A DNA stretch of 64,000 nt. It comes from Isosphaeraceae bacterium EP7. GTDB taxonomy: Bacteria; Planctomycetota; Planctomycetia; Isosphaerales; Isosphaeraceae. Shown here piece after piece: positions 12,474 to 52,717 of the stretch (positions are counted from its first letter, which is position 1; each line of letters begins with the position of its first letter). The stretch covers positions 5,095,174-5,159,173 of the forward strand of contig CP151667.1 in assembly GCA_038400315.1 (NCBI GenBank). The letters are read 5' to 3'. The position numbers and the translations under genes are program-made. The notes below the pieces were generated by a model that saw only the letters and a program-made list of their open reading frames with translations, did no database searches and was not told where the DNA came from.

Positions 12474-15400
12474 GTGGCAGACATGGTCCCCGACTACTAT
12501 GCGATGCTGGGCGTCGCCCCGAATGCCGACCGCTCGGAGATCGAGGCAGCCCTCTCTCGCCAGCAGCCCCTCTGGTCCTCGGGCACCCGCAACCCCAAGA
12601 CCAAGCACGCCTTCCAGTCGTACCTCGACCAGATCCCCGCAATCCGCCACGCCCTGCTCGGCGATCCGTCGAACCGCGCCTCCTACGACCTCCAGATCGC
12701 GGCCGTCCGCCAGGCCGAACGCACTCGCAAACTCGACGTTCTCCAGAAGCTCGTGGTGGTCAGGGCCGCGAAGGGAGGCTTGACGGTCTCCGATCGAGCC
12801 TTGCTGCGGGACCGGGCGGCCTCGCTCGGCCTGAACGCCGAAGACCTCGACAAGCTCGCCGAGCCCTTTCCCCTCAAAGCCGAGCCACCGCCGGAGATCG
12901 ACACGCCCGAGGCCCCCGTCGACGCCCTCGACCCGGCAACTCGCCGGCAGATCCGCGTCGGCCTGACCCATCTCGGGCTGCGTCATCTTTATGACGCCCT
13001 GGGCGTCCCCCGCGATGCGGCCGGCGACGCGATCGTCGCTCGTGCCGAGGAAGAACGCGGGCGCTGGATGCGGAAGTCGCAGGTAACCGCCGAGAAGACC
13101 GCCTGGCTGGAAGTGATCTCCTATGCCCAGTCCCACCTCGGGTCTCCGGCCGCAAGGTCGCGCTATGACCGCACGCTCGCCGTTGAGGCCGAGGAGGAGC
13201 TGTCGGAGTTAATCGCATTCGCCCTGGAAGGCAACGAACGGCTCGATCCCGGGACGCGGCAGATCCTGGTCGACGAAGCCTCGGCACGCGGTATCGCGCC
13301 CGTGCGTGCCGATCGCCTGATCCTGCGGGTCTGCAAGACACTCGGAGTCGCCCGCGATGCTCCGTCGCTCCTCCTTGAACCGCCAACCGCGACACGCTGG
13401 CTTCGCTGCCGTTCCTGTGGCGGCCTGAACGACCATACCCTGTTCATCCGCAGGCCCGATCAGCAGGCCCCATGCCGCCACTGCGCCATCGAACTCCGCT
13501 GGAGCTGCCCGGTCTGCCAGCGTTCGCGCTGGCCAGACGAGCCCCGTTGCTCATGCGGTTTTCCCCTGGAGCGTCGAGAAATCCTGGTCCAGACCTTCGA
13601 AGCGGCTCAGCAGGCGTTCAAGGTGCGCGACGATGACTCCGCGCTCGAATCCCTGCGCCGGGTGCAGGAGTTGGCCCCCGGTCATGTCGGGGCACGCAAG
13701 GGGATCGAGAAGATCAAGCATCGCCGGGCCGACCTGGCCAAGGTGGCCCTCGCCTGGAAGACGACCCGCGCGGCTCGTCAGTTTGTGGCTGCCCGCGAGG
13801 TGGTCTCGCAATGGGCCAAGCTGGTCGACCCTGAGACCGCCGAGTTGCAAGCGGCCTGGGCCGAACTGACCAAGGCCCTCCACGAGGCAGGCACCCTGAC
13901 GGCGCGGGCAAGGCGCCTCGAATCGTCCGAACCGAACGCCGCGCGGGCCCTCTACCGCCAGGCCCTGACGCTCGTCTCGGATCTGGCCGAGGCCCGCGAC
14001 GGTCTGCTCCGCAGCCCGCCCGACCCACCGACCGGTTTGACGATCGAGTCCGACGGCGACCTACTCCGGCTCCGCTGGAAACCACCCGCAGACGATGGCC
14101 TGGGCCCGCCGCGGTTCCGGGTCATGCGGATGCGCGCAGGCTCGACGAATTTTTCGGCCCCGGCCGAACTGGTTGCCGAGACCGACGCGACCTTCTGCGA
14201 CGACCCGGGCGCGACGCCCGGAGATTCGGTCGCCTACTCGGTGCACAGTGTGCGCGACGGCGTCCGGTCGTTGACCTCGGCTCAGACCGGTCCGTTGCTC
14301 GTGCTGGGTGAACCTGGAAATTTCATCAGCGAAGGTCGCGACGGGGAAATCGTCCTGACCTGGTCCCTTCCGGCGAAAGCCCTGGGTGCCAGGCTGATCC
14401 GCAAGACCGGTGCGGCGCCAAACGGGCCAGAGGACGGGTTGGTCGTGGACTCCCTGCGTGAGTCCGCCCGCGACGCCGGACTATCCAACGATCAGGTCTA
14501 TCATTACGCCGTGTTCGCCGAGTATCGCGGGCAGGCAGGAGCTGTGGTCCTGTCTCGCGCAACTTCGCTGGCGGCGAGCCCGCACCCGCCGATTGGTGGG
14601 CTCGATGCGCCGAAGCTGGCCCGCGAGCCCGATGGCCGGGTCCGCATCGACTGGCACCAGCCGGAGCGAGGGTCGGTGCGGATCGTCAGGTCAGAAAAGC
14701 CCCTGAATTTCGAGGCGGGCGAGCGCCTCGTCCCGGAACAGCTGAAGACGCTTTCCGCGGACTGGCTCGAAGACAGGGGGGGAAATGCGACGTTCGATTC
14801 GAGCCCTCCGGCCGCGGGCGTCTGCTATTACACGCCATTGACCTCATGGGCCGGCACCTGGACCGTTGGCGCGTCGGCCCCTTATTCATGCGTGCCGGAC
14901 CCGACCGACTTGCGTGCCGTACGAGTCGGAGGCGCTGGCCGGGTTCATCTCCGCTGGCGCTGGAGCCCGCGGGTATCGCAATGCCTGGTCGTCAGCAAGC
15001 CGGGCTCGGCACCGGACGGGCCGGACGACCGGGAGGCGACGGTGCTCCAGGTTTCCGAGGGTGAGTATAGCCGGCAGGGCTACCAGACCCTGACATTGCC
15101 GACGGCGATCGCGGGCCCCTGGCACCTTGCGGTCTTCAGCCTGATGTCGTCGGACGGCGAGCGGCTCGTTTCGCCGGGATTGGAGCCGACTGCACGGACG
15201 ATCGTCCCCGGTCCAAACCCCGAGGTGACCGTCTCGTATACCCTGCGCAAAGGAGGCTTTCCCGGCCGCCCCTGGTCGCTCCTGTTCCGCACCGATCCGG
15301 CCGGCTCAACGATCCCGCCGACGGCGATCGTTGCCCATCCCAGGACGATCCCGCTGTCCGTGGATGACGGCGAGATCGTGGCCCGTCTGCCGGCAACCAG

Positions 15401-15542
15401 GGACGGGGCGAGCTTCCCCATCCCGACGACGATCGACCTGGCCCGTCACCTGGCCCGCGTCTTCCCCGATCCGGCGGCCGACCCCGAGAGTCAGGCCCCG
15501 ATCCGGCTGCGTCATCCCGACGCTGGCCAGACCCGGGCCTGA
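12474..15542 (+). CDS. Large J-like / zinc-ribbon / TPR / FnIII-like protein
   Basis: A 1022-residue multidomain protein. Residues 6-75 look like a J-domain (DYYAMLGVAPNADRSEIEAAL), and 170-235 like a second (HLYDALGVPRDAAGDAI), but neither has the HPD motif needed to stimulate Hsp70. Four Cys pairs at 312/315, 334/337, 345/348 and 359/361 form two zinc ribbons. A helical TPR-like part (about 370-510) follows, then several fibronectin type III-like beta domains (GLTIESDGDLLRLRWKPP from about 515, LVLGEPGNF, and so on). There is no signal peptide or transmembrane helix. The start is GTG 12474, or ATG 12483. The role is unknown; the layout suggests a chaperone-related scaffold. Confidence 0.78.
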   Translation: MADMVPDYYAMLGVAPNADRSEIEAALSRQQPLWSSGTRNPKTKHAFQSYLDQIPAIRHALLGDPSNRASYDLQIAAVRQAERTRKLDVLQKLVVVRAAKGGLTVSDRALLRDRAASLGLNAEDLDKLAEPFPLKAEPPPEIDTPEAPVDALDPATRRQIRVGLTHLGLRHLYDALGVPRDAAGDAIVARAEEERGRWMRKSQVTAEKTAWLEVISYAQSHLGSPAARSRYDRTLAVEAEEELSELIAFALEGNERLDPGTRQILVDEASARGIAPVRADRLILRVCKTLGVARDAPSLLLEPPTATRWLRCRSCGGLNDHTLFIRRPDQQAPCRHCAIELRWSCPVCQRSRWPDEPRCSCGFPLERREILVQTFEAAQQAFKVRDDDSALESLRRVQELAPGHVGARKGIEKIKHRRADLAKVALAWKTTRAARQFVAAREVVSQWAKLVDPETAELQAAWAELTKALHEAGTLTARARRLESSEPNAARALYRQALTLVSDLAEARDGLLRSPPDPPTGLTIESDGDLLRLRWKPPADDGLGPPRFRVMRMRAGSTNFSAPAELVAETDATFCDDPGATPGDSVAYSVHSVRDGVRSLTSAQTGPLLVLGEPGNFISEGRDGEIVLTWSLPAKALGARLIRKTGAAPNGPEDGLVVDSLRESARDAGLSNDQVYHYAVFAEYRGQAGAVVLSRATSLAASPHPPIGGLDAPKLAREPDGRVRIDWHQPERGSVRIVRSEKPLNFEAGERLVPEQLKTLSADWLEDRGGNATFDSSPPAAGVCYYTPLTSWAGTWTVGASAPYSCVPDPTDLRAVRVGGAGRVHLRWRWSPRVSQCLVVSKPGSAPDGPDDREATVLQVSEGEYSRQGYQTLTLPTAIAGPWHLAVFSLMSSDGERLVSPGLEPTARTIVPGPNPEVTVSYTLRKGGFPGRPWSLLFRTDPAGSTIPPTAIVAHPRTIPLSVDDGEIVARLPATRDGASFPIPTTIDLARHLARVFPDPAADPESQAPIRLRHPDAGQTRA

Positions 15543-15560: not shown

Positions 15561-17924
15561 TTACTCGGCCTTTGCCGCCGACGCGGTCGCCCCCTTAGCC
15601 GCTTCGGAACGTAGGATCTCGGCGGTCAGGGCTTCGACTTCCTCATTGACGAGTGCGACGCGGGCGATGGCCTGATCGAGGGCAGGTTTGCGGTCGGCGA
15701 GCGCCTTATCGGCGGCAGCCTTCGCGGCCACGACGGGGTCAAGCTCAGCCTTGCGGGCTGCCAACGCCGCTTCGAGCGGGGCGGTTGCAGCCTTGAGATC
15801 GGCGACGAGCTTCTGCTGCACGGCCTTCGCGGCGGTCGCCTGATCGACGACCGCCTTGGCATCGGCCGTCGCCTTGGCGGCGAGGCCGGCCTTCTCGGTC
15901 GCCGCGGCGAGTGCGGCGGGGGCCGCATCGCGGGCGGCGATGGCGGTTTCCAGGGCGGTCTGGGAGGCAATCTGGACCTCGCCCGCGGACGAGATCGCGG
16001 CGATCAGACCGACGGCCTGGCCCGTCTTCTTGGACAGCTCGGCGAGTGCGGCAACAGCTGCGGCTTTGGACTTCGAGTCGTTCATTGCGGCAACGGCCTC
16101 GACGAGTCCCGCGTCGGCGGCAGTCTTGTCCGCCAGGGCCTTGGTCAAGGCTACCTTGGTGGCGGCTAGTCCCTCGGCGGCGGCTTTCTCCGAGGCGATG
16201 GTCGCAGTGACGGCAGCCTCCGCAGCGGTTTTGGCGGCCACGACGGTCGCCTCACCGGCCTGGGCCGCGGTGAGCGCCGTGGTCGCGGCGGTCTCGGCGG
16301 CCGTCTGATCGACGACGGCTTTCTCGGCCGCGGCAAGCTCCGCCTTCTTGGCCGCGACGGCCTGGGCCGCGGCATCGTGAGCCTGCTGAAGAGGCGCGGT
16401 CGCGGCCTGCTTGTCGACGGCCGCTTGGGTGAGTGCCGCTAGCTCTTTTGCGGCGGCATCGGCGGCGGCCGTGGCCGTCGGGATGGACGTGCGTGCCAGA
16501 TCGAGACGAACCGCGACGGGGGCCGGATTGGCGACGAGGTTCGCCAGGCGGCGGCCGTCGGCGGCGGCCCAGACGCGGACCTCGCCCGACCAGTCGCCGG
16601 CGATGATCTTGGTGTCGTCGTGGTTAAAGACGGCCTTCAGGCCGAGATCATTCTGGGCCTCGAAGTCGCGCAGCTTCCCGCCGTTCTGGTCCCAGAGGTG
16701 GGCGATCCGATCGCGGCCCGAGGTGACGAGCCGGCCGTCCTTGGCGAACCGGACCGAAGCGACCCCGCCACCGTTCGCGGCCCACGACTTGATCGCGGTG
16801 CCGTTGTCCATCTCCCAGAGCTTGACCGTGCCGTCCTCGCTGGACGAAGCGACGACATTGGAATCGAGCCGCCAGGAGACCTCGGTGATGGCCGTCGCAT
16901 GGCCACGCAGATCGTAGAACTCGCGGCCGGTCTGGCTTTCCCAGACGACGAGGCCATTGCTTCGGTCTCCACTGGCGAGCAGCACACCGTCGGGGCTGAA
17001 CTCAATGGCCGTGAGCCAGTCGGTGTGCTTCTTCATCTCGAACTGGAGCGAGTTGTCTGCCGTTGAATAGACGCGAAGCACCTTGCCGGGGCCGCCGAGG
17101 GCGACCTGGCCGTGGTCGGCGCTGATGTCGGCGGCCAGGACGACGTCGTATTCCTTGTCCTTGCCGATCTCGAAGACGCGTTTGCCCGTCTTCACGTCCC
17201 AGGCGACGGCAATGCCCGACTGGCCGCCTCGGCCTCCGCCGGCGAGGAGCAGTGCCCCATTCCGGCTGAACTTGAGGACGTTGACGGTCCCCTCGGGGAA
17301 CGGCAGCGTGGCCAGGAGCCTGGAGGTGTCGGCCTGGTAGAGCAGGACTTGCTTGTGGCCGGAGACCGCAACCAATGGAGCCCAGGGGCTGCCGGCGAGG
17401 GCGAGGATCGCATTCGCACGGGCGCTGACGACCACCGGCTCGGTCGAGAGGTTCTCGGGCATGGCCGGCGGGCCGACCGGCTTGCCGAGGGCCGAGGGGT
17501 CGAGCTTGAACTCGAACTTGGGCTTGGCCTTCATCGCGACGACCGCGCCGGCTGTTTCGGGGGCGCCTGCCTCGATCCAGGCCTTGATGACGTCGATCTC
17601 GGCGTCGGGGATCTTGGGCGCATTGGGAGGCATGAACGGCTCTTCGGCGTGGGTGATGACGCTGAAGAGTGTGCTCGCGGCGAAGTCGCCCGGCTCGACG
17701 ACCTTGCCCGAGCCGCCTCCCTGCATGGTCCCGCCGAAATTCTCCAGGTTCAGGCCGCCCTTCTGCTTGTCTGCGTTGTGGCAGGTGTTGCAGCGCTGGC
17801 GGAAGATCTGGGCCACGTCCTCAAAGCCCAGCTTCTTCTTGGCGTCCGCTGCGTTGGCCCGGACGGACAGGCAGGCCAGGGCCGCGAGGGCCACGATCCC
17901 GGTGCGAAGCGGTCTGGCAAACAT
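15561..17924 (-). CDS. Secreted WD40 protein with PSCyt1-type cytochrome and long Ala-rich coiled coil
   Basis: A 787-residue exported protein. After a signal peptide (GIVALAALACLSVRANA) comes a planctomycete cytochrome C (PSCyt1) domain with heme motif CNTCH at 45-49 and the usual end MPPNAPKIPDAEIDVIKAWIEAGA. A WD40 propeller occupies about 160-495 (for example FSPDGVLLASGDRSNGLVVW and VASSSEDGTVKLWEMD). The last 290 residues are almost only Ala, Lys, Glu, Asp, Val and Thr in a predicted coiled coil. The ATG at 17924 has an AAAGGCAG site; the frame is open to 17984. It is the last gene of the DUF1501-PPC-DUF1549/1553-WD40 set. The function is unknown. Confidence 0.85.
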   Translation of the reverse strand: MFARPLRTGIVALAALACLSVRANAADAKKKLGFEDVAQIFRQRCNTCHNADKQKGGLNLENFGGTMQGGGSGKVVEPGDFAASTLFSVITHAEEPFMPPNAPKIPDAEIDVIKAWIEAGAPETAGAVVAMKAKPKFEFKLDPSALGKPVGPPAMPENLSTEPVVVSARANAILALAGSPWAPLVAVSGHKQVLLYQADTSRLLATLPFPEGTVNVLKFSRNGALLLAGGGRGGQSGIAVAWDVKTGKRVFEIGKDKEYDVVLAADISADHGQVALGGPGKVLRVYSTADNSLQFEMKKHTDWLTAIEFSPDGVLLASGDRSNGLVVWESQTGREFYDLRGHATAITEVSWRLDSNVVASSSEDGTVKLWEMDNGTAIKSWAANGGGVASVRFAKDGRLVTSGRDRIAHLWDQNGGKLRDFEAQNDLGLKAVFNHDDTKIIAGDWSGEVRVWAAADGRRLANLVANPAPVAVRLDLARTSIPTATAAADAAAKELAALTQAAVDKQAATAPLQQAHDAAAQAVAAKKAELAAAEKAVVDQTAAETAATTALTAAQAGEATVVAAKTAAEAAVTATIASEKAAAEGLAATKVALTKALADKTAADAGLVEAVAAMNDSKSKAAAVAALAELSKKTGQAVGLIAAISSAGEVQIASQTALETAIAARDAAPAALAAATEKAGLAAKATADAKAVVDQATAAKAVQQKLVADLKAATAPLEAALAARKAELDPVVAAKAAADKALADRKPALDQAIARVALVNEEVEALTAEILRSEAAKGATASAAKAE

Positions 17925-18032
17925 GGGGCGATCTGCCTTTCGGGTCCGGTCAACGCGGGCGGGGCGGCCTGCGAGACGATGCATCTATAGGTGAAACCCG
18001 GCGCCAAGATGCGGCGCCGGGCAGGCTTTCGA

Positions 18033-20453
18033 TCAGTGGTTGAACAGGAACTCGCGGCTGTTGAGCAGGGCCCAGAAGACGTCTTCCAGGGCCTGCGTCT
18101 GGTTAGAACCCTCGCCGAAGGAGGGCATCAGCTTGTCGATCTCGGCGCGGGTCGGCTTGCGAGCCAGGCACCGCTCATAGAGGTCGCTGATCCGTTCCTC
18201 GGGCAGCTTGCGGGTCTTCACCAGCCGCTCGACGACCCCGCCGGCCTTGATCTTGGCGTTGACGGTGTCGCCGTTGAGCAGGTGAAGGGCCTGCGAAAGC
18301 GTGGGCTCCATCTTCACCTCGCACGAGCAGACCGTCTCGCGGGTGGCCCGGCCGAAGGTGGTCAGGAAGTAGGTGGAACTACCGCCGTCGGCGAGCTGCA
18401 CAGCGCGGGCACCAAGTGGGAGGCCCTGGAACTTATCCTTCGTCTCGGTCACGCCGCTGATCGTGTCGAGCAGGTTCTCGGCCTTGATGCGCCTGAGATT
18501 GGCGTGAGCGAAGTTGCGCTCGTCCAGCTCGTTGGTCGCGTTGCGGGCGGTCGAGCGTTGATACGTCCGGGAGTTGCAGATCTCGCGGACCATCGACTTG
18601 AGGTTGTATTTGGAGTCGGTGAACCGCTTGCCCAGCTCCTCGAGCAGCTCGGGGTTGGACGCGGGGTTGGAGACGCGGAAATCGTCGATCGGCTCGACGA
18701 TGCCGACGCCGAAGAAGTGGGCCCAGACCCGGTTGGCGAACGAGGTGGCGAACCAGGGGTTCTTGGACGAGGCAACCCATTCGGCGAGCAGAATCCGGCG
18801 ATCCTTGCCGGCGGTGTCGGGGGCCTCGGCGCCGAGGAACTTGGGCGGCATCACGCGGCCGCCGACGGGATGGTTCATCTCGCCGCCGCCGGAGTTGAAG
18901 ACGATCGTCTCGCGGTAGTCCTCGCCGGTCTTGCGGCCGATCTGCGAGAAGAAGGCGGCGAATCCGTAGTAGTCGTCCTGGGTCCAGCGGTCGAACGGGT
19001 GGTTGTGGCACTGGGCGCACTGGATGCGCATGCCCATGAAGACCTGGGCCACGTTCTCGGTGAGCAGCAGGGTGTCGTTGGTCGCCTGGAAGAAGTTGGT
19101 GGCCGGGTTCTTGAAGGTGCCGCCACTGGCCCCCAGGAGCTCGCGGACCATCTGGTCCATCGGCATATCCTTGGAGACCTTCTCGACCAGCCAGTTGTAG
19201 TACAGGAACATGGCCTTGTAGCTGATCGTGATCGTGCTGCGGACCTGCAGGGCCTCGGCCCACTTGTTGACCCAGATCTCCGAGAACTCCTTGCGGCCGA
19301 GCAGCTCGTCGACCAGCTTGGATCGCTTCTCCGGGTCGGTCGAGGCGACGAACGACTCGAACTCTTCAACCGTCGGGGTCAGGCCGACGACGTCGAGGTA
19401 GACCCTGCGCACGAACGTCTGGTCGTCGCAGAGGCCCGACGGGGTGATCCTCAGTTTCTTGAGCTTGGCCGCGACAAGGCTATCAACGAAGTTGGCCTCG
19501 GGCTCTTCGGGATACTTGAAGTCGAGCCCCTTGGGCAGGACGACGAACTGAGAGCCGACGGTGAAGGTCTCATAGCGGGCCATGACGAAGGCTTCGCCGC
19601 GCTGGCCGGCGGTGACGAGCCCGTCGGGGGTGACGGCGGCGGAGGTCTCGTTGTTGGTCAGGAAGACCGCGAGCTTGGTCACGTCGCGGTCGGTGCCGTC
19701 GGAGTATTTGGCCCGGACGGTCATCTGCTGGGTGGCCCCCTGGCCGTCGAGCACCCCGCCTCGCGGGTAGAGCTCCAGGCCGATGGGCTTGGCCACTTTG
19801 GTCACGTCGTCGTTGGCGGAACCCGCGGTGATCCAGTTGAGGAGCGTGGCGTTCAGCTCACTGTCCGGCTCAAACCGCTTGCCGCCGGTGTGCGGCACGG
19901 CGCCGACGGACTTCTCGACGACCGTGCTGTCGGCGGGGACGGCCATGTTGATCCGCCGGCCGGGCATCTCGCGGGTCAGGCGGAAGTGGTCGCCGTCGGG
20001 ATCGAAGCCGAAGAGGGAGAGGCGGAAGCCGTCCTTGCCGCGGGCGGCGCCGTGGCAGCTGCCGGTGTTGCAACCGGACCGCATGAAGATGGGCATGACG
20101 TCGAGCCGGAACGAGAGCGGCGGGGTGGCCGTGGCCTCGACGACCTTGACCGGCACCTTGACCTCGTGCCCGCCGTAGACCACGGCCAGCGAGGTCTCGC
20201 CGTCGGCAGCCGGGTGGAAGGTCGAACCGTCGCGGCGGAGGAGCGCCGGGTTGGCCGGGGTGATGACGGCCTCGGCGGTGATGTCGCGGGTGAGTCCGTC
20301 GGGATAGGTGGCCTGGACGACCATCGACTGGCGGTCTCGGGCGGTGCTCAGGTGGATCTCGGCCGGGTAGACCTCGATCCGGGCCGGAGCCGGGGCCGCG
20401 GGATCGGCCCAGGCCATCGCGGCAAGCGTCAAGGTGAAGGCGGCGAAAGGCAT
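18033..20453 (-). CDS. DUF1549/DUF1553 (PSCyt2/PSD1) protein with Ig-like repeats
   Basis: An exported 806-residue planctomycete protein. A short signal-like start (FAAFTLTLAAMAWA) is followed by two bacterial Ig-like (BIG2-like) segments (about 25-105 and 225-305). Between them CNTGSCH (128-134) is a CX4CH heme-like motif. DUF1549 covers about 320-510 with CAQCHNHPFDRW, a standard CXXCH heme motif at 479-483. DUF1553 covers about 555-790 with ANRVWAHFFGVGIVEPIDDF and the C-terminal LLNSREFLFNH. It lies between the PPC and WD40 genes on the same strand. The substrate is unknown; the family is tied to exported redox chemistry and possibly to carbohydrate or sulfated-sugar breakdown. Three CGAAACGAACC repeats lie upstream. 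Confidence 0.92.
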   Translation of the reverse strand: MPFAAFTLTLAAMAWADPAAPAPARIEVYPAEIHLSTARDRQSMVVQATYPDGLTRDITAEAVITPANPALLRRDGSTFHPAADGETSLAVVYGGHEVKVPVKVVEATATPPLSFRLDVMPIFMRSGCNTGSCHGAARGKDGFRLSLFGFDPDGDHFRLTREMPGRRINMAVPADSTVVEKSVGAVPHTGGKRFEPDSELNATLLNWITAGSANDDVTKVAKPIGLELYPRGGVLDGQGATQQMTVRAKYSDGTDRDVTKLAVFLTNNETSAAVTPDGLVTAGQRGEAFVMARYETFTVGSQFVVLPKGLDFKYPEEPEANFVDSLVAAKLKKLRITPSGLCDDQTFVRRVYLDVVGLTPTVEEFESFVASTDPEKRSKLVDELLGRKEFSEIWVNKWAEALQVRSTITISYKAMFLYYNWLVEKVSKDMPMDQMVRELLGASGGTFKNPATNFFQATNDTLLLTENVAQVFMGMRIQCAQCHNHPFDRWTQDDYYGFAAFFSQIGRKTGEDYRETIVFNSGGGEMNHPVGGRVMPPKFLGAEAPDTAGKDRRILLAEWVASSKNPWFATSFANRVWAHFFGVGIVEPIDDFRVSNPASNPELLEELGKRFTDSKYNLKSMVREICNSRTYQRSTARNATNELDERNFAHANLRRIKAENLLDTISGVTETKDKFQGLPLGARAVQLADGGSSTYFLTTFGRATRETVCSCEVKMEPTLSQALHLLNGDTVNAKIKAGGVVERLVKTRKLPEERISDLYERCLARKPTRAEIDKLMPSFGEGSNQTQALEDVFWALLNSREFLFNH

Positions 20454-20498
20454 GGGCTTGAGCCTCGGGGGCCGATGCGCCCGGGGGGGCGCCGCTCG

Positions 20499-20552
20499 GG
20501 TTCGTTTCGTGACGGCGGGTTCGTTTCGTCACGCCGCGATGGGTTCGTTTCG
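20499..20552 (-). repeat. Three CGAAACGAACC repeats
   Basis: Read on the minus strand, CGAAACGAACC occurs at 20499-20509, 20518-20528 and 20542-20552, spaced 19 and 24 bp. They fill the 131-bp gap between the PPC gene and the DUF1549/DUF1553 gene and point toward the latter, whose ATG is 46 bp away. Confidence 0.75.
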
Positions 20553-20584
20553 CGCGGCGTGGTGGGTTTGTTCGGCGTACTGGC

Positions 20585-23077
20585 TTACTGGGCGGCCGAA
20601 GCGGTGGCGGGGGCCGGTGCCGGAGCAGGGCCCGGCTCGGCGGCGGCGGCCTTGGCTCGCTCGGCGTGCTCCTTGCGGAGCTTCTCCAGGCGAGTCAGTG
20701 GCTTGGGGGGGGCCGCCGCCGGTGCTGGGGCCGGTGTGGCCGCCGCGGCAACAGGGGCGGGGGCGTTGGGCTTGGCGGGAAGCGGGGCGTCGACCCGGAG
20801 GGTTCCGGTGCCGATGTTGTGGACGATCGGCTCGCCGGCCTGGGTGATGACGACCTGGCAGAAGAGGTTGGCGTGGTTGCCTGCCGGGGTCGCCGCGTCG
20901 GTCTTGATCTTGAAGATCAGGTCGGTCGAGTCCTTGGTGATCGACTTCACCTCGGTGACCGCCTTGTTGGGCAGGCCGATGAGCGTGATCTGCGCGGGGC
21001 CGTCCCAGTCGGCGGCCTTGGCCACCTTGACGAGCATGTCAACTTCCTTGCCCTGCTCCACGCTGGCCGACTGATACGTCAGGGCGACGTACGGGGCGGC
21101 GACCGAGAGCTTGGCAAGCTGCGACGAGACGTAGATGGGGCCGGTGGCGATGCCCGAGTAGCCGTTGACGACGATCTTCCAGGTCGTCAGCGGCGAGCCG
21201 CCGTCGGCATTGATCGGGATCAGGGCCTCGGTCCCCTTCTCGGGGATAACGATGCCGCCGGACGAGCTGACGCCCGGGGGGTTCCAGGGCAGGCTCACCG
21301 CGATCGGGGCGGTGAAGCCCTCTTTCCGCTTGGCGATCACCTTCAGGTTCATCGAACCGCCGCGAACCAGGGGGACCTTCGGCTCGACGATCTCGATCGA
21401 GTAGGGGCACTCGTCGGTGACGGCCACGGCCATGTTGTCCACCGTGCGTGTCCAGACCGGGATCTGGTTCTGCCCGAGGACCATGTCAACCGTGTGGGTG
21501 AACTCGTCGGGGACGATGACCTTGGGATCGACCGGCTTGCCTCGGATCGCGGCGAGCGACCCGGCGGGGGCGGCATCGGCCGTCGCGGTGAACAAGACCG
21601 GCATGGTGGCGATGGCCGCGTTCATCGCGTCGGCCTCGAAGGTGACGCCCGGGGGAAGGTTGAGGGCCTCGAACTTCAGGTCGCCCCCGAAGTCATTGCG
21701 GGCCGCGTTAAGCAGGATCGCGTAGCGGTTGCCACGCGGGACGACGGCGGCGATGTGGCCCGCGCCGCGCTGGAGCGACTCGACGGCCGGGCTGATGACC
21801 AGCTTCGCCTCGACGGGGGCGATCTCGATCCGATAGAACGAGTCGGGCGACCCTTTCTTCAGGTGATCGACGACCCAGATGACGTACTCGCCATCGTCGG
21901 GGGCGGTGAACCGGATGTAGCTGTCCGGCCCGGGGTTGTCGTCGTTGCCGACCAGCGCCCCCTGCCCTTTCTTGCCGATGAAGAGCACGGGATCGAGGGG
22001 AGAGCGGAGCGTCCTGGCGAACACGCGGACGTCGAAGACCTGCCCCTTCTTGGCGTCGAAGACGAAATGGTCTTCATCGCCGGGCTTCTCGATGACCCCA
22101 TTCAGGGCGCCCGGCGCGGTGAATTTCGTCGCGATCCCGTGATTGTCGTTGGGCTCGACTTCCAGGACGTTCGTCAGCGCCGAGAGCCTGAACATATTCG
22201 GGTAGGGCGAGACCCCTTTGTCATCCTGGGCCAGCAGGCCGAAGTTGCGGTCGGCGGTCGCGGGCATGGTGACTTCGGTCGTCTTCTCGCCGAGGACGTC
22301 GCCGATCCACTTCACCGCCAGCTTCTCGCCGGGCTTGCCGCCCGCGGGGATGGTCGCGGTGAAGCGCGGGAAGTCGCCGATGTGAACGCGATAGAGGCAG
22401 GCGGCATTGCCGGCGTAGGCACTCTCGCGCACCTGGATCAGGTAGGTGCCGTCTTCGGGGGCGGTGATCGAGGCGAAGCCGTCCTGCCAGATGAGGGCCA
22501 GGTCGTCGCTGGTGGAGAGCTCGAACCGCTTGGCGTTGATGATGCCGACGTAGGGGTCGAAGGCCGAGATCCCGCCGCGGTTCCCCTCGACCTCCGCGCT
22601 GATGCGCTGGCCCTTCTTAGCCTCGACGGCGAAGTAATCGACGTCCTCGGTCTCGGCCACTCCGTTGACGCAGGTGCCCAGGGCGATGACCTGCGGCTTG
22701 GCGAAGTCGTTGTTGGGCTCGACCTCGGCGACGTCCTTATAGGGTCCGACGCTGAACGTGCGCAGCTCGCTGACTCCCGTGGCACTCCGGACCCGTAGGT
22801 CGTATAGGCCGAGGCGGGCGTCTGGGCTGATCTTGAACATCGCCTTGACGTGGCCGTCGTTAACCACCGTCAGCTTGGTGACGGAGATTCCGGGCTCGTG
22901 GAAGACAACTTCCTTGGCGTCGATCAGGCGGGCGCCCGTCAGGTTGACCTCGATCTCAACGCCGCGCTGGGCCCCGACCGGTCGGATGGCGGAGAAGCCG
23001 GGGGAGGCGGCCTGCGCGTGGGTCGCGGCGAGCAAGATGAGGGACACGCCGGAGAGGAGGGCCAGCCGATGTCGCAT
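20585..23077 (-). CDS. Secreted pre-peptidase C-terminal (PPC) domain protein
   Basis: An exported 830-residue protein beginning with a signal peptide (LALLSGVSLILLAATHAQA). At least two PPC-type beta domains are seen, each opening with the marker EVEPN: AEVEPNNDFAKPQVI (near 118) and LEVEPNDNHGIATKF (near 305), each with a DYFAVEAKKGQ/DHFVFDAKKGQ element. The remainder is beta-rich. The C-terminus is a Pro/Ala-rich tail with LTRLEKLRKEHAERAKA. No peptidase domain is present, so this is a binding or structural partner and not a protease. It is 131 bp before the DUF1549/DUF1553 gene, in the same operon-like block. Confidence 0.86.
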   Translation of the reverse strand: MRHRLALLSGVSLILLAATHAQAASPGFSAIRPVGAQRGVEIEVNLTGARLIDAKEVVFHEPGISVTKLTVVNDGHVKAMFKISPDARLGLYDLRVRSATGVSELRTFSVGPYKDVAEVEPNNDFAKPQVIALGTCVNGVAETEDVDYFAVEAKKGQRISAEVEGNRGGISAFDPYVGIINAKRFELSTSDDLALIWQDGFASITAPEDGTYLIQVRESAYAGNAACLYRVHIGDFPRFTATIPAGGKPGEKLAVKWIGDVLGEKTTEVTMPATADRNFGLLAQDDKGVSPYPNMFRLSALTNVLEVEPNDNHGIATKFTAPGALNGVIEKPGDEDHFVFDAKKGQVFDVRVFARTLRSPLDPVLFIGKKGQGALVGNDDNPGPDSYIRFTAPDDGEYVIWVVDHLKKGSPDSFYRIEIAPVEAKLVISPAVESLQRGAGHIAAVVPRGNRYAILLNAARNDFGGDLKFEALNLPPGVTFEADAMNAAIATMPVLFTATADAAPAGSLAAIRGKPVDPKVIVPDEFTHTVDMVLGQNQIPVWTRTVDNMAVAVTDECPYSIEIVEPKVPLVRGGSMNLKVIAKRKEGFTAPIAVSLPWNPPGVSSSGGIVIPEKGTEALIPINADGGSPLTTWKIVVNGYSGIATGPIYVSSQLAKLSVAAPYVALTYQSASVEQGKEVDMLVKVAKAADWDGPAQITLIGLPNKAVTEVKSITKDSTDLIFKIKTDAATPAGNHANLFCQVVITQAGEPIVHNIGTGTLRVDAPLPAKPNAPAPVAAAATPAPAPAAAPPKPLTRLEKLRKEHAERAKAAAAEPGPAPAPAPATASAAQ

Positions 23078-23232
23078 GGAAGTCTCTCGGGTGGGTGACG
23101 CCCCTGCGGTCGAGCGTCAATGGGGGAAGGGCCCGCTCAAGCGGGCATCGAGCGGTTGGATTCGGAACGACCGACGAGGGACGGCCCGGCAACGGCGGCG
23201 GCCGGCCCGACCCTCGCCAATCATTGGCCGGT

Positions 23233-24540
23233 TCAGGCCAGGAGTTCGGTGCGAACCTTGCCGCCGTCGACGATCTCGATCGGCCGGCCGCCGGGAGCCA
23301 TCAATTCCTTGTCGGCGACGATCCCGAGCTGGTGGTAGACCGTCGTCGCCAGGTCTTCGGGGCCGATCGGGTCTCGTTCGGGCTCGGTCGCGGTGGCATT
23401 GGAGGCGCCATGGATATAGCCCTGCTTGAACCCACCACCGGCCATGACGACCGAGAAGACCTTGGGCCAGTGGTCGCGGCCGGCGTCTTTATTGATCTTG
23501 GGGGTACGGCCGAACTCGCTGGAGACCATGACGACCGTGCGCTCGAGCAGGCCACGACGCGAGAGGTCGTTGATCAAGGCGGCGTAGGCCTGGTCGAAGG
23601 CGGGCATCGAGCCTCGCATCCCGGCGGCGATCCCGGTGTGCATGTCCCAGCCGCCGTATTGCAGGACGACGAAGCGGGCCCCTGCCTCAACAAGCCGGCG
23701 AGCCATCAGCATCCGCTGGCCAGCCTGGTTACGGCCGTACTCGTCGCGGAGCGGTGCGGGCTCGGCGTTGATGTCGAACGCCTGCCGGGCCTTCTCCGAG
23801 CTGAGCAGGCTGTAGGCCCGGTCGTAGAAGCTGTCCATGGCGGCCAGGCCGTCGCCCTTTTCCTTCTCGGCGAAGTGGGCGTTGACCGCCTCGAGCACGT
23901 TGCGCCTGGTGGAGAACCGCGAGGTGTCGATGCCCGCGGGGAGGTCGAGGTCCTGCACCCGGAAGCCGCCGTCGGCCGGGTCGGCCCCCAGGCTGAACGG
24001 GCTGAACGAGGAGCTGAGGTAGCCGGTTCCGGCGTAGACGTTGGGGATGCTGGGGACGCAGACGTAGGGCGGCAGGTTGTTGCGCGGGCCGAACTCGTGC
24101 GATACGACGCTGCCCATGCTCGGGAATTGCAGCGCCGGGCTAGGCCTGTACCCGGTGAACATGTTGTGCGTGCCGCGCTCGTGGGCGGCTTCGCCGTGGG
24201 TCATCGACCGGATGACGGTGAGCTTGTCTGCGACCTGGGCCGTCTTGACCAGGGTCTCGGAGAAGACCTCGCCGTCGATCTTCGTCGGCACGGTCCCCAA
24301 CTCGCCTCGGTATTCAACCGGCGCGAACGGCTTGGGATCGAACGTCTCCTGGTGGGCGATGCCGCCGGGCAGGAAGATGTGGATGACCGAGTCGGCCTTG
24401 GCCTTGATCGGCTCGTATTTCTTCAGGTCCGCGTGGGCCTGGTGCCGAAAGAGATCGGCGAGGGTGAGCCCCATGCCGAAGGTGCCGACGCTCAGGAAGC
24501 CGCGCCGGCCGAATGCTCGACGTGAGATACCTTCAAACAT
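23233..24540 (-). CDS. DUF1501 protein with twin-arginine-like signal
   Basis: A DUF1501-family protein, 435 residues, with the sulfatase/alkaline phosphatase-like fold known for this family. The N-terminus RRAFGRRGFLSVGTFGMG looks like a twin-arginine export signal. Characteristic parts are HIFLPGGIAHQETFDPKP, RSMTHGEAAHERGTHNMFTGY, PPYVCVPS and, late in the protein, VVMVSSEFGRTPKINKDAGRDHWP. I chose ATG 24540 because GGAGG lies eleven bases upstream; ATG 24564 has no site. It is the first gene of the minus-strand module with PPC, DUF1549/DUF1553 and WD40-cytochrome. The biochemical activity is not established. Confidence 0.92.
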   Translation of the reverse strand: MFEGISRRAFGRRGFLSVGTFGMGLTLADLFRHQAHADLKKYEPIKAKADSVIHIFLPGGIAHQETFDPKPFAPVEYRGELGTVPTKIDGEVFSETLVKTAQVADKLTVIRSMTHGEAAHERGTHNMFTGYRPSPALQFPSMGSVVSHEFGPRNNLPPYVCVPSIPNVYAGTGYLSSSFSPFSLGADPADGGFRVQDLDLPAGIDTSRFSTRRNVLEAVNAHFAEKEKGDGLAAMDSFYDRAYSLLSSEKARQAFDINAEPAPLRDEYGRNQAGQRMLMARRLVEAGARFVVLQYGGWDMHTGIAAGMRGSMPAFDQAYAALINDLSRRGLLERTVVMVSSEFGRTPKINKDAGRDHWPKVFSVVMAGGGFKQGYIHGASNATATEPERDPIGPEDLATTVYHQLGIVADKELMAPGGRPIEIVDGGKVRTELLA

Positions 24541-24889
24541 CGACTGGGTCTCCTCCGGGGTCATCCCGAAGCCCGTTGCTGACCCGGCCGGAGCGGTCGT
24601 GAGACGAGCGGCCGGTTAGGGCGAGAGCGGGATCTCGCCGGTTAGAGTCAGCGCGGGGCGAAGTCTGGGGTCGTCCGGGTGGGCTAGGGGGGCGGGCTTG
24701 GCTTGCTGGCGATCCAGGGCCGTTGTTCAACCTTTGCTTGCGGTGGCTTGCCCCTAATACGCGATGAGTGCAAGCGACGTTGGCGCCAATTCTCTGCGGA
24801 TGGAAAATCAATCTTCCGGGTCGCCATACTCGTGCCGTAAATGGATGTCCGTCGCATTGTTGGGCGTCAATCGCGGAGGAGGCGATTCG
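24541..24889. other. Divergent intergenic region (DUF1501 / GT-C gene)
   Basis: A 349-bp gap between divergent genes. CGGTTAG occurs at 24613-24619 and 24639-24645, flanking a 6-bp hairpin (GCGAGA 24621-24626 with TCTCGC 24633-24638), which may be a regulatory site for the DUF1501 operon. A longer plus frame starts at 24764 but lacks a ribosome site. Nothing else stands out. Confidence 0.4.
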
Positions 24890-50065: not shown

Positions 50066-50180
50066 GTCGGCGGAGGCAGGGCTCTACCGGCGCGGGGCTG
50101 GCGCGTTTATGCTGAGGGGGTTCGACCTTCCCCGCCAGCCCGCCCGCCGGTCCTTCCCGCCGCCAGTCGAGGCCCCGCCG

Positions 50181-52661
50181 ATGCATACGCCCCCGCGCCG
50201 CCCATGGGCCATGGCCCACCAGAGCTGTTTGAGAATTGCTGGATTTACGGCAATTGCGTGGATGGCCGGCGTGGCTTCGGCCCAGTTTCCCGAGCCGAAG
50301 CTGGCTGGGCTCTCGACCACCGGAGGCCGGGCCGGCGATTCGGTGTTGCTGACGATTTCGGGGACTGACCTGGAGGGGGCGAATTCCCTCTGGTTCGACC
50401 ATCCGGGGTTCCGGGCCTTCCTGCTCAAAGGGGCGACCTTCCGGGTGGCGATCGGGCCCGACGTGCCCCCGGGGCATCACGACATCAGGGCGTCTGGCCC
50501 CCTGGGGATTAGCAATCCGCGGGTCTTCGTGGTGGGGGATCGGCCCGAGGCGCTCGAGGTCGAGCCCAACGAGACCAAGGCGACCGCGACTCCTCTGACG
50601 CCCAACTCGACGGTCAGCGGAGTGATCGCGACACCGACCGAGCTGGACTTTTACGCGTTCGAAGGCGTGAAAGGCCGCCGGTTATTCCTGGATCTGGCGG
50701 CCGAGCGACTTGATAGCAAGCTCGACGCGACCCTGACGCTTTATGGCCCCGATGGCCGGGCGATGGCCGAGAGCCGGGACGTGCGCGGGGTTGATCCGTT
50801 CCTCGACGTCACCCTGCCGGCGGACGGCCGGTATACCTTGCGGGTACACGACGTCGTCTACGGCGGCTCGCCCCAGCATGTCTATCGCCTGACGATCCAC
50901 GAAGGGCCGCACGTCGACGCGGCGATCCCCAGGGCGCTGGAGCCGGGCAAGACGACCAAAGTCACGTTCTACGGCCGAGGTCTGGGCGGCAAAAATTCGC
51001 CGGGCCTGACCGCCGATGGGATGCCGCTGGAGCAGGTCGAGGTCGACGTGACGATCCCGGCCGACGACCTGAGCTGGCCGGGGCAGGTTGCTGGGGCGGG
51101 TTTGCTGCGTCGGGGGGCCGATTACGTCTACGCCAATGGCTCGGGACGAGCCGAGCCGATCGGCTTTGCCTTGGCGAACGTCCCGGTGACTCTCGAAGTC
51201 GAGCCGAATGACGAGACAAAGCCGCAGACGCTGACCTTGCCGGCGGAAGTCTCGGGGACGTTCGGTGAGCCCTCCGACCTGGACGTCTATCGGTTCAAGG
51301 CGAAGAAGGGAGAAGTCTACTGGATCGAGGCGACCGCGGAGAAGATCGGCTCGTCGGCCGATCCCGTGTTCGTGGTCCAGCAGGTCGACGACAAAGGGGT
51401 GGCGACGGATCTGGTCGTGGGCGACGACCTGGCCGACGCGGGGACGGCTCCGCGTGCGTTGCTCAGCTCCGTCGACCCGGCGATTCGCTGGGAGGCGCCC
51501 GCGGATGGCACGTTCCAGGTGGCGATCAGCGACCTGCTCGGCTCACAGCGCGGGGATGCCCGCCTGGCGTATGTCCTGTCGATCCGCCCCGCCAGAGCCG
51601 ACTATCAACTCATGATCGCCCCCGAAAATCTGGCGCTGGCGTCGGCTCTCACCGTGCGAGCCGGCGGCAAGGCAAGCGCGAGGATTCTGGTCGCCCGCGT
51701 GGACGGGTTCAGCCGGCCGATCCGCGTCGAGGCGGTGGACCTCCCCGCAGGCCTGAAATGCGATCCGACGGTGATCGCCGCCGGGCAGGTGCAGGCCCCG
51801 ATCGTCGTCGAGGCCGATCCGACCGCCAAAGAGGGGATTGTCACTCTCAAACTAGTGGGCCGATCGCTGAACGCGGACGGCAAGGCGGATCCCTCCGAAG
51901 TGGTCATGCCGGCGATGGGTGTGGGGCTGATCGCGGTTGATGTGCCGTCGAAATCGCGGCGGACACGCGGTTTCCCGCTGACGGTGATCGGTGGGGCGCC
52001 GTTCGCGGTCGCCTGGTCGGCCGACACGCTCATCGCGGCCCCCGGTCGGCGACTCGATTTCAAGGCGAACGTGACCCGATTGCCGGGGTTTGTCGAGGCA
52101 GTCGCGCTGGCGAGTGTTGACGTGCCGCCGGGGGTTCCTGCGCTCGCCCTGACGATCGCCAAGGATCAAGGCTCGGCGACCGGATCGTTGCTCCTGCCCA
52201 AGACGGTAACGCCGGGTGTTTATGCCCTGATGGCCAGGGGATCGGGTCCGTTCCCGTTCAGCAAGGACCCGGCGGCCAAGGAAAAGCCGAACGTGACGGT
52301 CAGCGAGCCGACGAACATCCTGTTGCTCGACGTGAGGGCGGCGCCGGCGACGATGGCGGCCGTCATGCCCCCGGGGCCTCTGGCACGAGGGAGCAAGCTG
52401 GAGATCCCGCTGACGATCACGAGGGTCGTCAAAGACTGCGGGCCGGTGACGGTACGACTGATCGCGGAAGCCGACATGAAGCTGAGTGCCGAGGTCGTCG
52501 CGATTGCCGCGGATCAAGGCGCGGGCAAGCTGACGATCCTCGCGGGTGCCGATGCGCCGGAAGGGCCGAAGGCGGTTCTTCTGCGGATCTCGGCGACCGT
52601 GGATGGACAGGTGATCGAGACCGACGAGCCCCTGACCCTGACCGTCGCGCCGAAATCCTAA
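50181..52661 (+). CDS. Secreted PPC-domain protein (second copy)
   Basis: An exported 826-residue paralogue of the PPC protein at 20585-23077. A signal peptide (CLRIAGFTAIAWMAGVASA) is followed by beta-rich domains, of which two PPC domains are recognisable: ALEVEPNETKATATPL with LDFYAFEGVKGR, and LEVEPNDETKPQTLTLPAE with DVYRFKAKKGE. More beta domains fill the C-terminal half. There is no peptidase domain. It precedes the WD40-cytochrome gene by 56 bp on the same strand, so the pair resembles half of the four-gene module. The ATG at 50181 is used; 50211 is an alternative. Confidence 0.85.
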   Translation: MHTPPRRPWAMAHQSCLRIAGFTAIAWMAGVASAQFPEPKLAGLSTTGGRAGDSVLLTISGTDLEGANSLWFDHPGFRAFLLKGATFRVAIGPDVPPGHHDIRASGPLGISNPRVFVVGDRPEALEVEPNETKATATPLTPNSTVSGVIATPTELDFYAFEGVKGRRLFLDLAAERLDSKLDATLTLYGPDGRAMAESRDVRGVDPFLDVTLPADGRYTLRVHDVVYGGSPQHVYRLTIHEGPHVDAAIPRALEPGKTTKVTFYGRGLGGKNSPGLTADGMPLEQVEVDVTIPADDLSWPGQVAGAGLLRRGADYVYANGSGRAEPIGFALANVPVTLEVEPNDETKPQTLTLPAEVSGTFGEPSDLDVYRFKAKKGEVYWIEATAEKIGSSADPVFVVQQVDDKGVATDLVVGDDLADAGTAPRALLSSVDPAIRWEAPADGTFQVAISDLLGSQRGDARLAYVLSIRPARADYQLMIAPENLALASALTVRAGGKASARILVARVDGFSRPIRVEAVDLPAGLKCDPTVIAAGQVQAPIVVEADPTAKEGIVTLKLVGRSLNADGKADPSEVVMPAMGVGLIAVDVPSKSRRTRGFPLTVIGGAPFAVAWSADTLIAAPGRRLDFKANVTRLPGFVEAVALASVDVPPGVPALALTIAKDQGSATGSLLLPKTVTPGVYALMARGSGPFPFSKDPAAKEKPNVTVSEPTNILLLDVRAAPATMAAVMPPGPLARGSKLEIPLTITRVVKDCGPVTVRLIAEADMKLSAEVVAIAADQGAGKLTILAGADAPEGPKAVLLRISATVDGQVIETDEPLTLTVAPKS

Positions 52662-52717
52662 TTCCAATGGCGAGTGATCGCGTAGGAAGACGAGCGATGA
52701 ACTTTGAGGCGTCCGCG

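Follow-up and report, generated by a model that had tools for sequence, protein, structure and literature searches.

A conserved four-gene locus of planctomycetes with predicted metal and heme sites, possibly encoding an exported oxidoreductase complex

What might a DUF1501 protein, a PPC protein, a PSCyt2/PSD1 (DUF1549/DUF1553) protein and a PSCyt1-WD40 protein do together when their genes stand in a row in a planctomycete? The question is raised by a 64,000-nucleotide stretch of Isosphaeraceae bacterium EP7 (contig C1, 5095174-5159173 of a 7.2-Mb genome; hereafter the window), in which all four are encoded by the minus strand. A preliminary description of this DNA had suggested an exported redox complex. 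The comparisons reported here argue strongly that the four genes form one ancient unit or operon, and the explanation that we tentatively prefer, with a confidence a little below even, is an exported oxidoreductase complex in which a DUF1501 metal site would be served by c-type hemes as the electron exit. The genes are as follows.

23233..24564, minus strand: DUF1501 protein, 443 aa; Pfam score 371 bits against a cut-off of 27; an inner ATG at 24540 is a possible start
20585..23077, minus strand: PPC protein, 830 aa; two PPC domains and, as judged by eye, a probable signal peptide
18033..20453, minus strand: PSCyt2/PSD1 protein, 806 aa; immunoglobulin (Ig)-like, PSCyt1-like, Big_2 Ig-like, DUF1549 and DUF1553 domains
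15561..17984, minus strand: PSCyt1-WD40 protein, 807 aa from the ATG at 17984 or 787 aa from the ATG at 17924

The common direction of the genes, as previously described, was borne out, and the domain families all scored above their Pfam cut-offs: DUF1501 (PF07394, 371.3 against a gathering cut-off of 27 bits), PPC (PF04151, 48.7 against 25.9 bits, over two stretches), PSCyt2 (PF07583, 174.4 against 29.8 bits), PSD1 (PF07587, 153.3 against 28.5 bits) and, in the last protein, WD40 (87 against 27 bits) and PSCyt1 (52.7 against 22 bits). NCBIfam gave no name for any of the four proteins. When the longest open reading frames (ORFs) are taken, the intergenic gaps measure 155, 131 and 48 bases; the last becomes 108 bases if the WD40 gene starts at its inner ATG at 17924, which agrees with the 100-155 bp given before, just as the end formerly set at 24540 fits the inner ATG of the DUF1501 gene. 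A promoter and terminator scan returned no promoter-like site and three terminator-like sites, against 6.1 expected, all three on the opposite strand.

The conservation of the unit was followed in relatives found by scanning 84,980 species genomes with the PSCyt2 protein. The best 80 of the 450 relatives (61-76% identity) were taken as loci, a choice that biases the set to the ortholog group of the window. The nearest among these best 80 are Isosphaeraceae records with 75-76% identity, and the titles of the 80 loci include Isosphaeraceae, Gemmatales, Planctomycetales, Pirellulales and Schlesneria. At 58 of the 80 loci the complete set was present on one strand and in fixed order, and another 20 are cut by contig ends. 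Only two loci are true exceptions, one without DUF1501 and PPC nearby (L072) and one without the WD40 protein (L088). Of the 60 loci that are long enough to judge, 58 therefore keep the gene order rather than showing the genes randomly separated, which favours a module. Taken singly, a PPC ortholog was seen at 70 of the 80 loci (nine cut off, one absent) and a PSCyt1-WD40 ortholog at 75 (four cut off, one absent). The pairwise distances among the four proteins correlate at 0.83-0.96 (53 rows), which is what joint inheritance would give. No conserved fifth gene was found in the flanks, which extend at least 3 kb upstream in 55 loci and at least 3 kb downstream in 48; the commonest flank families occur in 11, 9 and 7 of the 80 loci, and the most frequent is another DUF1501 copy. 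Four metagenome bins labelled Candidatus Kuenenia stuttgartiensis (L034, L035, L061, L062) hold the module at 63-69% identity, and their species label looks doubtful.

The co-occurrence of the genes was profiled over the phylum in 294 genomes drawn evenly. For a PSCyt2 ortholog a score of 777 bits or more and an identity of 47% or more were required (most paralogs are close to 40%), so that a partial protein with 47% identity and 706 bits (G045) was left out; DUF1501 orthologs were accepted with E up to 1e-150. The PSCyt2 ortholog was present in 67 genomes, namely in 48 of the 52 of the same class and in 19 of the 242 others. All 64 genomes with a DUF1501 ortholog also had that of PSCyt2, giving 64 genomes with both, 3 with PSCyt2 only, none with DUF1501 only and 227 with neither; the Fisher value for this table is descriptive only, because the genomes are related by descent. 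Two of the three PSCyt2-only genomes (the third is G106) were looked at in detail. In G013 a DUF1501 gene adjoins but is below the threshold (L180), and in G184 the final part of a DUF1501 match lies within a very long frame (L178, C1 1850000-1866000): the last 234 residues of this 4900-residue frame match DUF1501, just upstream of a normal PPC-PSCyt2-WD40 row, and the frame may represent a fusion or a rearranged gene. A PSCyt2 ortholog is found within 7.5 kb downstream for 60 of the 65 DUF1501 orthologs. In four of the other five cases (G218, G065, G139, G063) the two genes are on different contigs, and in the fifth, the one-contig genome G078, they are far apart. Loci from beyond the class that keep the order are L172, L173, L174, L175, L176 and L180; no WD40 gene was seen in the stretch taken for L177. 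The togetherness of the genes proposed in the preliminary description is thus upheld at the loci of the relatives and fails in one genus, that of G065 and G078, in which DUF1501 is separated.

The same association is visible among the paralogs of the EP7 genome, which has 75 DUF1501, 48 PSCyt2, 47 PSCyt1 and 2 DUF1800 matches, the DUF1501 figure including pieces of single genes and one match below the cut-off. A DUF1501 match lies on the same strand no more than 6 kb away for 47 of the 48 PSCyt2 domains; when the placement was randomised 2000 times, this held for 3.3 domains on average and never for more than 12. By score, 34 of the PSCyt2 copies form a strong class and 14, that of the window included, a weaker one. 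PSCyt1 matches lie within 1.5 kb of a strong-class PSCyt2 in 33 of 47 cases, and among the 12 other weaker-class loci three (L001, L003, L009) also have PPC and PSCyt1-WD40 genes. In L009 the PSCyt1-WD40 and PPC parts form a single 1186-aa frame, and in L172 PPC and PSCyt2 share a single 1672-aa frame; such fusions usually indicate a shared task. Loci L174-L177 were also considered as PPC-PSCyt2 fusions and were rejected as extended frames, both domains lying in one frame only in L172.

The four proteins were then compared residue by residue. The conservation counts rest on the orthologs that passed length and score limits (80 PSCyt2, 70 WD40, 64 PPC and 59 DUF1501), and two alignments were built, A1 with 39 of the 80 PSCyt2 orthologs and A2 with 31 of the 59 DUF1501 orthologs, each together with 13 genes of the same genome. 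The sites of interest in the DUF1501 protein are the following.

24502..24507, minus strand: twin-arginine pair R20-R21, putative Tat-type signal
24181..24183, minus strand: H128 codon, at the nucleophile position of the alkaline-phosphatase fold
23638..23646, minus strand: D307 and H309 codons, probable metal ligands
23512..23517, minus strand: E350-F351 codons, where sulfatases have a metal-binding D-H or D-N pair
23470..23472, minus strand: H365 codon, probable metal ligand

To judge from its AlphaFold2 (AF2) model (mean predicted local distance difference test, pLDDT, 87), the DUF1501 protein has an alkaline-phosphatase-like fold; neither this nor the replaced nucleophile described below figured in the preliminary description. 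The model superposed on nucleotide phosphodiesterases with a VIA-align Z of 20.4 over 246 residues (root-mean-square deviation, rmsd, 3.3), and Foldseek placed sulfatases and LtaS first, with a best E of 4.6e-7 but a template modelling (TM) score of 0.41 and a large rmsd. In profile comparison by hhalign, DUF1501 matched 20 sulfatases of the same genome at 95.3% (E 2.3e-8), the reversed profile reaching 0.2%. The single DUF1501 sequence had no credible relative in a search of the PDB sequences, and its profile gave weak sulfatase matches over one stretch only (best E 0.11).

Within this predicted fold the active site appears altered at two places. The nucleophile position was set by a T-G shared with the sulfatases; the sulfatase Cys, two residues before P-S-R, meets H128 if no gap is opened, hhalign itself having separated that Cys from the P by a gap, so that this register comes from a profile alignment and not from coordinates. 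In E. coli alkaline phosphatase and in NPP the nucleophile likewise stands nine residues before the T of the shared T-G. Instead of the Ser, Thr or Cys (formylglycine) of classical phosphatases, sulfatases and phosphodiesterases, this position is His in all 84 proteins aligned, that is 45/45 DUF1501 proteins of A2, 32/32 DUF1501 proteins encoded beside DUF1800 and 7/7 DUF1552 proteins, from which one wrong-frame ORF (L156) was excluded. The second-metal Asp-His (or Asp-Asn) pair is replaced by Glu-Phe: E350-F351 is kept in 77/77 DUF1501 proteins, not in DUF1552, and its pairing with the sulfatase G-D-H-G-R is a weak match (E 0.11) that recurs in the profile alignment. The classical mechanism of phosphatases and sulfatases uses both the nucleophile and the second-metal D-H pair. 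Since the one has become His and the other E-F, we do not file DUF1501 with these enzymes, and an ordinary phosphatase or sulfatase is unlikely. The first-metal ligands D, H and H, which were assigned by their order along the chain and not from coordinates, would correspond to D307 (77/77 DUF1501), H309 and H365 (84/84 each), and one metal ion is likely held by H128, D307, H309 and H365. Both arginines of R20-R21 are found in 45/45 DUF1501 proteins of A2 and in 7/7 DUF1552 proteins, and in 30 and 31, respectively, of the 32 DUF1501 proteins beside DUF1800. The twin-arginine translocation (Tat) system exports folded, cofactor-loaded proteins, and the putative signal fits the export of DUF1501 in such a state.

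The two heme-like motifs that had been noticed in the DUF1549 protein proved to be real and invariant, and a third motif lies in the WD40 protein.

20052..20072, minus strand: PSCyt2 heme motif 1, C128-x4-C133-H134; window and 80/80 orthologs
19890..19892, minus strand: H188 codon, probable second axial ligand of heme 1; window and 80/80 orthologs
19005..19019, minus strand: PSCyt2 heme motif 2, C479-x2-C482-H483; window and 80/80 orthologs
17778..17792, minus strand: PSCyt1 heme motif, C65-x2-C68-H69; window and 70/70 orthologs used
17631..17633, minus strand: M118 codon, probable axial Met of a class I cytochrome c; window and 70/70 orthologs used

Motif 1 of PSCyt2 sits in a PSCyt1-like domain (profile link to PSCyt1 94.3%), and H188 belongs to a PHxGG motif where the PSCyt1 domain of the WD40 protein has MPP. 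With the paralogs included (A1), H134 and H188 are present in 51/53 proteins (two gaps), C128 in 50/53 (three gaps) and C133 in 50/53 (one Arg, two gaps), and the DUF1549 CXXCH is found in 53/53. The invariant C-x4-C-H and H188 predict a bis-histidine heme. The PSCyt1 domain of the WD40 protein, with its CXXCH and distal Met, shows the pattern of a class I c-type cytochrome. Two matches for cytochrome c assembly were obtained in the genome, and c-type heme in the proteins of the module is likely.

A search of the PDB sequences gave nothing credible for the PPC protein and many propellers for the WD40 part; the last ~300 residues of the PSCyt1-WD40 protein are Ala-rich and not conserved. The PSCyt2/PSD1 protein (AF2 model, pLDDT 88) has Ig-domain matches, including likeness to the Ig domains of S-layer and Leptospira surface proteins. 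Its clear matches in the PDB sequence search were to Ig domains only, and the structure matches listed for the model likewise fell on these domains, none on the helical residues ~310-806.

The origin of this helical part was suggested by profile comparison. Against 32 DUF1800 proteins (30 with loci among the best matches and two of the EP7 genome, hence not a random set), PSCyt2/PSD1 matched at 95.9% (E 5e-9) over the C-terminal halves, and residues 315-806 at 96.1% in an alignment that runs along both proteins; the N-terminal half of the helical part alone was not significant (11%). The homology of PSD1 and DUF1800 thus rests on the C-terminal half, and colinearity over the whole length is no more than suggested. 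All controls (DUF1501, PPC, WD40, sulfatases and reversed profiles) stayed below 1%. As the protein scores 15 bits against the DUF1800 (PF08811) Pfam cut-off of 26.1, it is by these profiles a distant homolog of that family and not a member. A DUF1501 frame is present at 32/32 DUF1800 loci, and none of the 32 DUF1800 proteins has a CXXCH. These relatives adjoin DUF1501 without the motif, and heme therefore appears to have been added to a core of two proteins.

A third pair consists of DUF1552 and a protein with PSD4 and PSCyt3 (7/7), encoded by same-strand neighbours in 7/7 cases; both halves match their counterparts in the DUF1501-PSCyt2 pair at 93%, and the partner proteins have two CXXCH motifs. 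A carbohydrate-binding module of family 60 (CBM60) or a PA14 domain occurs in two of the seven partner proteins, which hints at sugars. The alignments of DUF1552 and of the PSCyt3-type proteins are small (8 and 7 rows), and two direct comparisons were not significant (DUF1552 with sulfatases, 4.3%; PSCyt3-type with DUF1800, 15.6%), so that these links run via DUF1501 and PSD1. On the profile evidence, members of the same two superfamilies are joined in three gene pairs that have diverged from one another; two of these pairs have heme motifs and the third has none.

These observations can be combined into the following explanation. The four genes would be one operon for an exported protein complex whose core is DUF1501 and PSCyt2/PSD1. 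In DUF1501, H128 with D307, H309 and H365 would hold one metal ion, and the partner would be a helical protein of the DUF1800 superfamily with two c-type heme sites, the bis-His CX4CH and the DUF1549 CXXCH. The PPC protein probably binds substrate or surface, and PSCyt1-WD40, with its propeller as the scaffold, may carry a cytochrome c with His/Met ligation. The metal site would oxidise an exported, probably sugar-containing, substrate. The hemes of PSCyt2 would take up the electrons and hand them to the cytochrome of PSCyt1, and substrate and partners would be held outside the cytoplasm by the PPC, Ig and WD40 parts. The gene order and its conservation, the homologies and the invariant residues are the observed part of this scheme; we infer the binding of metal and heme, the formation of a complex, the path of the electrons and the substrate. 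An exported redox complex, as first proposed, remains plausible on these grounds.

Several points weigh against the preferred oxidoreductase. The strongest argument against electron transfer as the core of the whole system is given by the DUF1800 pairs: partners without CXXCH nevertheless adjoin DUF1501, so that electron transfer is not central to every such pair. D307 is found in just 2/7 DUF1552 proteins (Glu in 3/7), so that the full ligand set is not universal, and the meeting of H128, D307, H309 and H365 in space is deduced from sequence. In the EP7 genome 29 of the 75 DUF1501 matches lack a PSCyt2 on their own strand at a distance of up to 6 kb, and the genus of G065 and G078 has its DUF1501 gene elsewhere and no PPC gene in the stretches taken.

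In the main rival to the oxidoreductase, DUF1501 would act as an ester hydrolase or transferase on phosphate or sulfate esters of exported polymers, with H128 as an unusual nucleophile and the heme proteins as auxiliaries (for example redox sensors or carriers for another step). The alkaline-phosphatase fold, the profile link to sulfatases and the retention of H309 and H365, and in DUF1501 of D307, all agree with it, as do the CXXCH-less DUF1501-DUF1800 pairs and the sulfatase genes reported near PSCyt genes (He et al. 2017, PMC5615132). We nevertheless consider it somewhat unlikely, given that the nucleophile and the second-metal D-H are both replaced, that the replacements are invariant in DUF1501 and that three probable heme sites are kept without loss in the module. 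A structural or surface complex, with the Ig-like, PPC and WD40 parts forming an envelope or attachment structure, DUF1501 as a dead scaffold and the hemes structural or minor, would account for the many binding domains, the lost nucleophile, the Ig domains akin to S-layer and Leptospira surface proteins and the unconserved C-terminal part of the WD40 protein. A dead enzyme would hardly retain H128, H309 and H365 in 84/84 proteins of three pair types, however, nor a structural heme its probable axial ligands, and this explanation appears improbable. That the four are unrelated exported proteins, adjacent by chance because their families are numerous, might be argued from the 75 DUF1501, 48 PSCyt2 and 47 PSCyt1 matches of the genome and from the genus with separated genes. 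It has next to no probability and was rejected on the pairing of 47 of 48 PSCyt2 domains against 3.3 expected, the same order in distant genomes and the co-occurrence of 64/3/0/227.

Some further copies were observed in the EP7 genome. A second PPC-like protein at 50109-52661 of the window (plus strand) is followed by a second PSCyt1-WD40 protein at 52667-54988 with a CVGCH motif; this two-gene half-module at 50109-54988 (plus strand) has no DUF1501 or PSCyt2 nearby. On C1, eight PPC matches lie within one 10,255-residue frame, a giant gene at ~2594895-2609429 (minus strand), and a DUF1501 match at 4732865-4734010 (minus strand) with one internal TAG is probably a decayed copy. DUF1501 genes stand side by side at C1 276228-278993 (plus strand) and 2204240-2207006 (minus strand), with no PSCyt2 within 6 kb; DUF1501 can therefore also stand with another DUF1501. 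Convergent to the module, the window encodes a 1022-residue protein at 12474-15542 (plus strand) with a weak DnaJ-like start (23.2 bits, below the cut-off of 27.8), which, used as a query, matched nothing at the 80 loci.

The domain families and the association of DUF1501 with others are already known. For the proteins of R. baltica that contain PSD1 and PSC2 domains, each in 41 copies, redox reactions have been suggested, with reference to Studholme et al. (PMC2754498). Genes for PSCyt2 and PSCyt3 stand beside two unnamed families in Verrucomicrobia (PMC5615132), and carbohydrate-binding modules occur in PSCyt genes (He et al. 2017, PMC5615132), which we counted in favour of a sugar-like substrate. 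DUF1501 has been reported near WD40 genes in planctomycetes (PMC5587647), in DUF1501-containing clusters of bacteria of the Planctomycetes-Verrucomicrobia-Chlamydiae (PVC) group (Kamneva et al. 2012, as cited in PMC4452313) and, paired with DUF1800, together with chitin synthase in Dickeya and related bacteria (PMC5122149). In the text available of another study PSCyt1 is used only for classifying cytochromes (PMC11495043), and the main-text passages of an essentiality study of Planctopirus limnophila contained nothing on these genes (PMC10632474).

The locus described here resembles the PVC clusters in having DUF1501 in a conserved cluster of exported proteins (PMC4452313) and the verrucomicrobial genes in giving PSCyt2 a fixed neighbour (PMC5615132); compared with the accessible parts of these reports, the four-gene order with PPC and PSCyt1-WD40, the occurrence of the PSCyt2 ortholog in 48 of the 52 genomes sampled from the class and the residue analysis are found here only. 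With the pairs of Dickeya it shares DUF1501 with a partner of the same superfamily (PSD1-DUF1800, 96%) and a Tat-type start, but the 32 DUF1800 proteins lack CXXCH, and the passages concerned mention neither a PPC nor a PSCyt1-WD40 part (PMC5122149). The pairs of DUF1552 (HXXSHH) with PSD4/PSCyt3 (DUF1592/DUF1588) agree in both halves at 93% and in a partner with two CXXCH, and differ in belonging to other Pfam families and in not keeping E350-F351 and D307. The members of the alkaline phosphatase superfamily (NPP phosphodiesterases, sulfatases and LtaS) share the fold of DUF1501 (Z 20.4), whereas DUF1501 has His for the nucleophile and E-F for the second-metal D-H. For the four-gene order, the PSD1-DUF1800 homology and the His site of DUF1501, no paper was found by title or abstract in the open-licence literature.

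The cytochrome families specific to planctomycetes have long had names but no assigned function (He et al., PMC5615132). This work singles out a copy that is present in 48 of the 52 sampled genomes of the class, defines the gene set to which it belongs and ties the families to the DUF1501-DUF1800 pairs. Changes in H128, D307, H309 and H365, in H134 and H188 and in M118 would directly test the metal, the heme and the function. A wider proposal, which is speculative and on balance doubtful, is that DUF1501 and DUF1552 represent a branch of the alkaline-phosphatase fold that turned redox or non-hydrolytic, its nucleophile having changed into a metal-binding His so as to give a one-metal site of three His and an acid, and that it acts with a dedicated partner superfamily made up of DUF1800, DUF1549/1553 and PSD4/PSCyt3. 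The planctomycete partner may then have gained hemes, giving a new class of exported oxidoreductases with dozens of copies per genome, of which the operon described here would be the most conserved form.

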